Shown here: positions 16,835-19,503 of the stretch, piece by piece | Layout of the letters: each line of letters begins with the position of its first letter | Position numbering within the stretch: position 1 is the first letter of the stretch | Assembly: GCA_947623845.1 (NCBI GenBank) | Contig: CANQHM010000008.1 | Span: 1-31,237, forward strand | DNA length: 31,237 nt | DNA from: an uncultured Bacilli bacterium | GTDB taxonomy: Bacteria > Bacillota_I > Bacilli_A > RF39 > UBA660 | Direction: 5' to 3' | The notes under the pieces: generated by a model | Database searches by the model: none | Told to the model about the DNA's origin: nothing | What the model saw: only the letters and a program-made list of their open reading frames with translations | Position numbers and translations under genes: made by a program

Positions 16835-16888
16835 AAGTATTATAAATAATTAAAAGTAAAAATAAAGACGATTTATGTAAATAAGCTA

Positions 16889-16917
16889 TTGAACAAATGT
16901 TTTATATAAGATATAAT
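16889..16917 (+). promoter_or_regulatory. Promoter of the PolC-like gene
   Basis: TTGAAC (16889-16894) and TATAAT (16912-16917) with a 17-base spacer, 20 bases before the ATG at 16937. Confidence 0.65.
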
Positions 16918-16936
16918 TATATTAGGAAGTGATAAT

Positions 16937-17977
16937 ATGTATGATGAAATAAATATGGATGCTAAAAAGTATTTAATTCCTATAATTCATGAAAAATGTA
17001 TGGAAAAATATAAGGGAAAAGAAGAAATACTAGAAAGATGCTATGCCGAATTAAATTTATTATATAAAAATAATATGTTATTTATTATAGAGTATCTTTA
17101 TAAATATAAATTAAGCAATAAAGAAGTAAAGTATTATTTTAATGGCTCATTTAATAATTTACTCTTGTTATATCTTCTAGATTTAGGTAATGTAGATCCC
17201 CTAAAATATAATCTTTCTTATGAATTATTTGGGATAAAGACTTTAGAGATAGATATTGCTAATGGTATTTCTTTAGATTTTTTAAATTATTTAGAACATA
17301 AATGTGAAGATATAAAAATCGTTTTAAAAAAATATAAAAAAATTTATGATAAATATTTAGAAACTGATAATTATTATATTTTACCAACTAATGCTTTACC
17401 TGATGATATGGAATTAAGATTTAATGAAGATGGTTTATTAGAAACGTATGATACTAACTGTTTTTATGAAGATATGTACCTAACTATTCGGGTAAAAGAA
17501 AAATCTTTAATTTATGATTTTGAAAAAATAGGTATTGAAAATGCTATCGATAATACTTATGAGGGGAATTTACAAAAAATATTAAAACCTAAAAGTTTTG
17601 ATGATTATGTTAAGATTAAATGCCTTGCTCATAGTACGCATTGTTGGAAAGAAAATCAAGAATATTTAGTAAAAGATGGTAAACTTGATATTAAAAATAT
17701 TATATCTAATAGAGAAGATATTTATGATTATTTAGTAGAACATAAAATTCCTAAATACTATATTAAAGAAATAATTGATTTAGTTAGGAAGGGTAGTTTT
17801 AATAATCCTTTAGGTAATTTTTATAAAGAAATTTTACTTAAATATAATTGCTCCCAAGAGTTTATTGGTATTTTAGAAAAAATATTATATCTTACCAATC
17901 GGGGTGAGGGGATAAGTAAATGTTTATATTTTTTAGATAAAAGTAATTATTTATTAATGGATGAAAATGCGCAATAA
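16937..17977 (+). CDS. Degenerate PolC-like protein (shrunken DNA polymerase III alpha core)
   Basis: A 346-aa soluble protein with a good promoter and GGAAGTGAT ribosome site. Stretches align in order with the polymerase core of PolC: CYAELNLLYKNNMLFIIEYL (35-54) with the helix before the GSRGSVGSS block; GSFNNLLLLYLLDLGNVDP (70-88) with that block and its TEVNP end; LEIDIANG (103-110) with PDIDLNFSG; SLIYDFEKIG (190-199) with LLKLDILG; FDDYVKIKCLAHSTHCW (221-237) with FSELVQISGLSHGTDVW; and NREDIYDYL plus LVRKG with CRDDIM and VRKGKG. PolC references are from memory. The PHP and exonuclease parts, the zinc region and most of the fingers are absent, the triphosphate-binding GSRGS is lost, and the first catalytic Asp is Glu. 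An active polymerase is unlikely; clamp, DNA or partner binding is possible. Confidence 0.6.
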   Translation: MYDEINMDAKKYLIPIIHEKCMEKYKGKEEILERCYAELNLLYKNNMLFIIEYLYKYKLSNKEVKYYFNGSFNNLLLLYLLDLGNVDPLKYNLSYELFGIKTLEIDIANGISLDFLNYLEHKCEDIKIVLKKYKKIYDKYLETDNYYILPTNALPDDMELRFNEDGLLETYDTNCFYEDMYLTIRVKEKSLIYDFEKIGIENAIDNTYEGNLQKILKPKSFDDYVKIKCLAHSTHCWKENQEYLVKDGKLDIKNIISNREDIYDYLVEHKIPKYYIKEIIDLVRKGSFNNPLGNFYKEILLKYNCSQEFIGILEKILYLTNRGEGISKCLYFLDKSNYLLMDENAQ

Positions 17978-17991
17978 TTGCCAAAAAAATT

Positions 17992-18029
17992 AAAAATGCT
18001 CAGTATTTTTAAAAAACTGCGCATTTTTT
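17992..18029 (+). terminator. Intrinsic terminator after the PolC-like gene
   Basis: AAAAATGCtCAGT pairs with ACTGcGCATTTTT, with one internal mismatch, and ends in a run of T. The loop is A/T only. Confidence 0.7.
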
Positions 18030-18084
18030 GTTATATTAGTATAAATTTTTTTAAATAGGGTATATCTAATTATAGGTGATTATC

Positions 18085-18764: not shown

Positions 18765-18785
18765 CGACTTTAAGTCGCTTTTTTC
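18765..18785 (+). terminator. Intrinsic terminator of the DUF421 gene
   Basis: CGACT/AGTCG stem with a TTA loop, followed by C and six T. It lies 2 bases after the stop and touches the end of the convergent Sir2 gene. Confidence 0.75.
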
Positions 18786-19503
18786 AGTGTAATTTACTAA
18801 AGACATTGGTTAAGTCATCATGAATAACTAAGGAAGCTTTATAATCATAAGCGGTTTCCGTATTATTGATAATAACTAAGTATTTACCATTAAATAGACT
18901 TACTAAACTACTTGCAGTGCTAACCATTAGAGAAGTTCCGGCGACGATTAACATATCGGCTTTAGCAACTAGTTTTATTGCTTCTTCATAACAATCAGGT
19001 AAGGCTTCGCCATATAATACGACATCAGGTTTAATGACCCCGCCACAATCACACTTAGGTATTCCTTTTTTATTAAAAACATCTTCCGCTCCATAAACTT
19101 TATGGCATTTAAGGCAATGATTTTTATAAATACTTCCGTGTACTTCATAAACTTTTTTACTACCCGCTTTAGTATGTAAGCCATCAATATTTTGGGTAAT
19201 AATACCTTTAAGTTTTCCTTGATCTTCTAACTTTTTTAGATAAATGTGCGTAATATTTGGTTCGGCATCTAAGGAATTTAAATTATTACGATAATATTCA
19301 TAAAATTCTTCGGGGTAATTTAAAAACATATCAATACTTAACATATATTCCGGTGGAAACTTAGTTTTTTGATTATATAATCCGTCTTTACTTCGAAAAT
19401 CTTTAATGCCACTAGCTGTTGAAACCCCGGCACCACCTAAGAAAACAATATTTTGACAATTATCAATTAATTTTTGTAAATCTTCTACTTTATTCATAAT
19501 CAT
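18784..19503 (-). CDS. Sir2 family NAD-dependent protein deacylase
   Basis: A 239-aa sirtuin, normal bacterial length. NAD-binding GAGVSTASGIKDFR (24-37), TQNIDGLH (103-110) and catalytic His122 in VHGS are present. A zinc module has CLKC (130-133) and CDC (151-153), so the second pair is C-x-C rather than C-x-x-C. KPDVVLYGE and AGTSLMVS are also present. It removes acyl groups from lysines using NAD. It is the only gene here ending in TGA. Its ATG overlaps the stop of the upstream acetyltransferase by one base, so the two are coupled: a deacylase and an acetyltransferase in one operon. Confidence 0.93.
   Translation of the reverse strand: MIMNKVEDLQKLIDNCQNIVFLGGAGVSTASGIKDFRSKDGLYNQKTKFPPEYMLSIDMFLNYPEEFYEYYRNNLNSLDAEPNITHIYLKKLEDQGKLKGIITQNIDGLHTKAGSKKVYEVHGSIYKNHCLKCHKVYGAEDVFNKKGIPKCDCGGVIKPDVVLYGEALPDCYEEAIKLVAKADMLIVAGTSLMVSTASSLVSLFNGKYLVIINNTETAYDYKASLVIHDDLTNVFSKLH

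Follow-up and report, generated by a model that had tools for sequence, protein, structure and literature searches.

Among the replicative DNA polymerases of the C family is PolC (NF001688; PDB 3f2b and 9qpc), which duplicates the chromosome of numerous bacteria, is the DNA polymerase III alpha of the Gram-positives and has 1474 amino acids (aa) in 9qpc_A. Polymerases of the Y family are known to have inactive paralogues (ImuB; PMC12926913), but for the C family we came across no such description. The accessible parts of PMC12926913, PMC3919608, PMC11348598 (on phage PolC) and PMC12592400 contain no description of an inactive C-family paralogue, and the family presented here is not described in the literature on truncated or inactive PolC, plasmid pCY186, replisome decoys and the WYL/MBL/FtsH gene set, in which few subscription journals were covered. 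In this work we analyse the mini-PolC, a 346-aa protein (P0001) encoded in a 31,237-nucleotide stretch of DNA, hereafter called the window, from an uncultured Bacilli bacterium (contig CANQHM010000008.1, assembly GCA_947623845.1). The mini-PolC is a conserved, apparently catalytically dead and mobile core of the PolC family that belongs to an old lineage, and it constitutes a well-supported new lineage of pseudo-polymerases. An earlier note on this DNA had described it as a shrunken and probably inactive relative of PolC.

The relation to the PolC core is borne out by both sequence profiles and fold, the two comparisons suggested in the earlier note. The window protein scores 60.2 bits against the PolC sequence profile (curated cut-off, 873), with a partial match in the fingers region, and the fold comparison identifies the palm and fingers of the C family, the part of PolC that is covered being limited to residues ~820-1300. 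No Pfam match to the PHP, exonuclease, OB or HhH domains was found in the 346 aa of the protein. Alignment with PolC indicates that the thumb and the zinc element are also missing, and the C-terminal clamp-binding peptide of PolC is absent, the window protein stopping after the fingers. The loss of the zinc part, PHP and exonuclease had been correctly recognized beforehand. However, the region then labelled as thumb/beta-binding is the fingers, and this domain, most of which had been considered missing, is the best preserved part of the mini-PolC. The family of mini-PolCs containing the window protein is here defined as A1; the window protein belongs to it by full-length similarity, a length within 320-365 aa, and the presence of a dead palm plus fingers. 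A sister family of minis is called A2.

Residue numbers used below for PolC are those of the E. faecium enzyme, as they appear in the accessible part of PMC12592400, and their transfer to the alignment by motif is our own step. Motif columns were counted on 24 of the 25 A1 rows (P0024 has no N-terminus) and strand columns on all 25, together with eight PolC rows; A2 counts refer to 18 of 21 matches, since P0041, P0043 and P0046 were dropped for length. The GSRGSVGSS loop, present in 8/8 PolC, is replaced by F-x-G-x-x-N-N in A1, including the window protein, and mostly by R-G-T-x-x-S-S in A2, so that GSRGS is indeed not recognizable, as previously remarked. The place of D972 is occupied by Asp in 0/24 A1 and 3/18 A2, and that of D974 by Asp in 7/24 A1 and by Glu in 18/18 A2. 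In an alternative register (residues 104/106) no A1 member carries Asp at both places, P0001 and P0002 having Glu and Asp. The strand of the third Asp shows R or K in 22/25 A1 and Asp in none of them. At the three catalytic places the window protein has E104, D106 and R185 and lacks the Asp triad. A1 is judged inactive because of the absence of an Asp pair at 104/106 and because 22/25 rows carry R or K in the third strand, which supports the inactivity that had been considered probable. With respect to other residues, H1185 is kept in 23/24 A1, whereas H1280 and Y1284 are each found in 0/24; A2 shows H1280 (16/18), F1276 (13/18), H1185 (9/18) and Tyr at 1284 (2/18). The fingers retain their W (23/24 A1, 18/18 A2), and the R-[ED]-D motif retains its Arg (22/24 A1, 18/18 A2). 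Judging from these motif marks, both A1 and A2 are apparently pseudo-polymerases, and A2 might still bind nucleotide.

Q241 and L244 are invariant in the 25 A1 rows, 18 of which read Q-x-x-L-F, while PolC has A-x-x-L-I. The A1 pattern Q-x-x-L-[V/F] looks like a clamp-binding peptide, but it sits in a predicted helix and is only a lead.

The window protein has 24 homologues, with identities of 36-97%. Twenty-one mini genes available as DNA form 210 pairs; in the 25 closest of these, without exception, the nonsynonymous rate (dN) is lower than the synonymous rate (dS) (Nei-Gojobori), the dN/dS ratios being about 0.14 to 0.6. The mini-PolC is under purifying selection, in agreement with the earlier opinion that the gene is maintained rather than decaying and with the dN/dS below one proposed as a check. 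In the tree, a branch (95/95) parts 22 ordinary PolC and three mid-size rows from A1 and A2; as the tree branches are long, A1 and A2 could have originated independently. Eleven A1 rows out of 25 (P0004, P0006-P0010, P0012-P0015 and P0018; 55 pairs) show jumps in identity between the N- and C-terminal halves. For instance, identity by quarter is 100, 100, 77 and 57% between P0004 and P0014, and 49, 68, 99 and 91% between P0010 and P0012. These mosaic halves are due to either reassortment or assembly chimaeras. Mosaicism was set aside and nothing is built on it, because these are metagenome proteins and no jump of comparable size appears in the printed pairs of the 15 A1 genes available as DNA.

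The mobility of the mini-PolC gene is indicated by an empty site. The NlpC/P60 protein of the window was searched in 385 genomes and matched in 46, and synteny flanks were inspected in 12 of these (10 with longer flanks). G839 alone has the gene order of the window, with NlpC (63%), YetF (85%) and GNAT (70%), and no mini-PolC lies between NlpC and YetF, although in this draft genome one could be located in a gap. The two A1 matches of G839 sit in frames of 1670 and 971 aa, which are full polymerases. Window DNA outside about 16877-18030 matches continuous G839 DNA; at the joint there is an overlap of 4-5 bases, TTAT(A). The insert has a G+C content of 21.5%, vs 25.8 and 25.2% for the 5 kb on either side. 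Because the mini-PolC is rare, gain in the window lineage is likelier than exact loss. A Sir2 gene (window 18784-19503) is also absent from G839, where YetF and GNAT are 28 bases apart; this gene is a second accessory insertion near the mini-PolC.

The distribution of the minis is patchy. An A1 alignment search of the genome contigs yielded 11 loci, and a single-protein scan of the same contigs yielded none. Nine of these loci belong to metagenome-assembled genomes (MAGs) of "uncultured Bacilli", one to Lachnospiraceae, and one is a fragment at a contig end. Full-length minis are present in 4/288 genomes from the order of G001 and 1/146 of its nearer relatives, in 3/299 genomes from the family of G216, and in 4/145 relatives of G010, with additional partial copies in G194 (contig end) and G171 (170-aa frame). 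A full PolC above the cut-off coexists with the mini in 11/11 relatives' genomes having a mini locus, although in G009, where it lies at the end of a contig, the frame has 562 aa. Tblastn searches with an A2 protein matched 19 plasmid records, with coverage of at least 80% in one (pCY186), and 18 records of a phage collection, one of which, a 7-kb faecal "Bacteriophage sp." sequence without annotation, is covered to at least 80% at 29% identity. Most of the remaining matches cover the fingers part common to full PolC. A joint-profile protein search added no proteins to the two earlier lists.

Table 1. Features of the mini-PolC unit in the window.
Feature	Positions	Strand	Basis or remark
Inserted unit of ~1.15 kb: promoter-like site, open reading frame and hairpin	16877..18030	+	tblastn synteny, blastn/pairwise junctions; ends uncertain by a few bases
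Sigma-70-like promoter, TTGAAC-17-TATAAT	16889..16917	+	10/12 matches; such sites not in excess over shuffles
Ribosome-binding-like AGGAAG, 7 bases 5' of ATG	16924..16929	+	sequence
Mini-PolC open reading frame, 346 aa (P0001)	16937..17977	+	
Palm, N-terminal part, residues 12-98, PF07733 (0.0013)	16970..17230	+	
GSRGS-loop place, residues 68-76, F-x-G-x-x-N-N	17138..17164	+	
Strand at catalytic D-x-D place, residues 102-108, E-I-D at 104-106	17240..17260	+	
Strand at third catalytic Asp place, residues 181-189, R185	17477..17503	+	
Fingers domain, residues 213-323, best preserved part	17573..17905	+	
Q-x-x-L-[V/F], residues 241-245, Q and L invariant in A1	17657..17671	+	
Hairpin, probable terminator	17988..18032	+	z -2.96; missed by pattern scan

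The neighbours of the mini-PolC in the window are NlpC/P60, BaxI, YetF, Sir2, GNAT and helix-turn-helix (HTH) genes, none of which looks related to replication. Flanks are available for 11 A1 loci (L001-L009, L103 and L104). A DnaB_C-like ATPase of 212-215 aa, which retains Walker A and B, adjoins the mini at four of them (L001, L002, L006 and L104), and a protein partly similar to DUF4160 (cl1) lies near the mini at five. The 11 A1 genomes contain six DnaB_C matches in frames shorter than 320 aa: four next to a mini-PolC, one adjoining an 881-aa PolC-like frame (L107), and one apart from both (L108). Tandem minis occur at L001, L002 and L004. At L007 (8546-12304) the row AbiEi, AbiEii, mini-PolC and PDC-S01 (AAA_14-DUF4143) was found, with PADLOC matches of 1.3e-57 and 3.9e-82 for AbiEi/AbiEii and 8.1e-136 for PDC-S01.

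A recurrent gene set was also observed in three Bacilli MAGs (L107:86-6278, L088:3836-10002 and L089:5680-10258). It consists of an HTH-like regulator, a KOW-motif protein and a PolC-like frame of 660-881 aa, accompanied by a DnaB_C-like ATPase in L107 and L089 and by an MBL hydrolase in L107 and L088. Among these PolC-like frames, the 660-aa form lacks the catalytic Asp residues, and the 728-aa form (G007) retains all three. For the regulator cl17, PADLOC hinted at a WYL protein (5.3e-4); hhalign did not confirm this identity, which was dropped.

In A2, the order WYL, MBL, FtsH-like and mini recurs in L082, L084 and pCY186, with other genes interspersed: PcfJ lies between the FtsH-like gene and the mini in L082, and DnaX plus a 480-aa DnaE-like core precede the FtsH-like gene in pCY186. 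The MBL hydrolase has an intact H-x-H-x-D-H motif, and the FtsH-like neighbours retain Walker A and HEAGH. These soluble AAA plus M41 proteases (L082:11480-12742, L084:7350-8612 and L094:13573-14949) have 420-458 aa, vs 600-800 aa for the usual FtsH frames of the same genomes. A WYL-cluster protein (without a Pfam match of its own) adjoins the mini of L102 and is 2.5 kb away in L086, and the WYL/MBL/FtsH-like set is not present at L085 or at L101, which starts 0.5 kb before the mini. McrBC-type genes are located about 13 kb from the mini of pCY186. The 480-aa protein of this plasmid (WP_013283142, L094:12125-13567), annotated as hypothetical and encoded two genes before the mini, was grouped by clustering as a PolC relative, but we read its alignment motifs as those of a DnaE-derived palm-fingers core that has lost the GSRGS-type and D-x-D motifs; by this reading, a single block of pCY186 contains a dead core from each of the two replicative polymerases. 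An 89-aa frame of L082 (11082-11351) that groups with the mini-PolC and adjoins the PcfJ-like gene is perhaps a fragment of another mini.

We propose that the mobile accessory cassette encodes a pseudo-polymerase whose PolC-family palm and fingers selection would have retained for binding. It could sit on a primer-template, or on a partner in the replisome, without extension and, by doing so, might interfere with, or report on, DNA replication, most likely in conflicts between genetic elements, either host vs phage or plasmid, or plasmid vs plasmid. Neighbouring genes would serve as effectors where present, and the solitary window protein would compete or serve as a decoy. Binding without synthesis is suggested by the retention of the fingers and palm fold despite the loss of catalysis; conflict is suggested because the minis are rare and mobile, one A2 member is on a plasmid and one locus is in a defence island. 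We assign this reading as a whole a probability of about 0.4. Several observations weigh against it. There is no effector gene beside the mini-PolC in the window, the DnaB_C-like neighbour is absent at 7/11 A1 loci, neither A1 nor A2 relatives were found in viral contigs, and FtsH-like and MBL relatives were not observed at L085, L101 (whose sequence starts 0.5 kb before the mini) or L102. Ten neighbours, belonging to seven A1 loci, were scanned with PADLOC; strong matches were obtained only for the three at L007, plus a weak one at L002. The case for defence proper is weak, because strong PADLOC neighbours are limited to L007 and P0001 itself has no match. A wider version of the proposal, more doubtful than the proposal itself, is that gut Bacillota carry mobile systems made of dead, trimmed parts of their own replisome (PolC, short DnaB-like ATPases and, on pCY186, also DnaE), which would act as fork-mimicking decoys or sensors wired to effectors (FtsH-like protease, MBL hydrolase, WYL regulator), the window gene being the minimal solitary form.

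A function outside conflict is also conceivable. The dead core may bind PolC partners (DnaB, DnaX, clamp) or forks and tune priming or fork speed as a regulator of host replication; the full PolC of 11/11 carrier genomes, the pairing with short DnaB-like ATPases, the purifying selection and the Q-x-x-L-[F] pattern of A1 are all consistent with this. However, such a regulator should be less patchy than a gene found in 4/288 and 1/146 genomes around G001 and absent from the closest syntenic relative seen, and we consider it unlikely, albeit a serious candidate. Dead polymerase paralogues acting as hubs are an established kind, as ImuB illustrates (accessible part of PMC12926913), and WYL-type regulators and an intact-motif MBL hydrolase occur with A2 and the longer PolC-like frames, so the mini-PolC could provide a scaffold on which a complex for repair or mutagenesis assembles, in the way that the inactive ImuB does for DnaE2. 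This is improbable, since no RecA-, PolY- or DnaE2-like gene is found among the annotated neighbours and the window unit has no operon. Chances are slim that the mini-PolC is a small active polymerase or nucleotidyltransferase: although the window protein retains E104 and D106, A2 keeps one carboxylate (Glu in 18/18) and much of the nucleotide pocket, and the 728-aa frame of G007 has all three Asp, neither family has an Asp triad, 22/25 A1 carry R or K at the third place, and the thumb is missing. The disappearance of the catalytic residues and of most domains would also fit a decaying, functionless remnant of PolC, but this explanation is hardly credible, being already contradicted by the shared architecture of A1 and A2, their intact frames, dN < dS, confident folds and family-specific invariant residues.

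Compared with known systems, the mini-PolC resembles ImuB in being a dead polymerase paralogue kept as a separate protein. Unlike ImuB, it has the C-family fold, and no ImuA/DnaE2-type partner is found beside the mini genes. The FtsH-like neighbour of A2 minis matches IetA, the AAA protein of the IetAS defence system in the PADLOC model, through its AAA part (5.1e-21); however, this neighbour has its own M41 zinc-protease domain, and the window contains no such gene. If the proposed pseudo-polymerase cassette is real, a dead, mobile and conserved PolC core that recurs beside DnaB-like, protease and hydrolase genes would add a new kind of participant to the control of replication or to conflicts between elements. 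Another known setting is the replication block of pCY186 from B. proteoclasticus B316, where the A2 mini-PolC WP_013283140, annotated as hypothetical, sits among Rep, DnaC-like, DnaB, PolC, DnaA/Hda, DnaX and FtsH-like genes, whereas the window gene is solitary and chromosomal in look. Since this A2 member is on a plasmid of a cultured strain, the role of the mini-PolC is testable.
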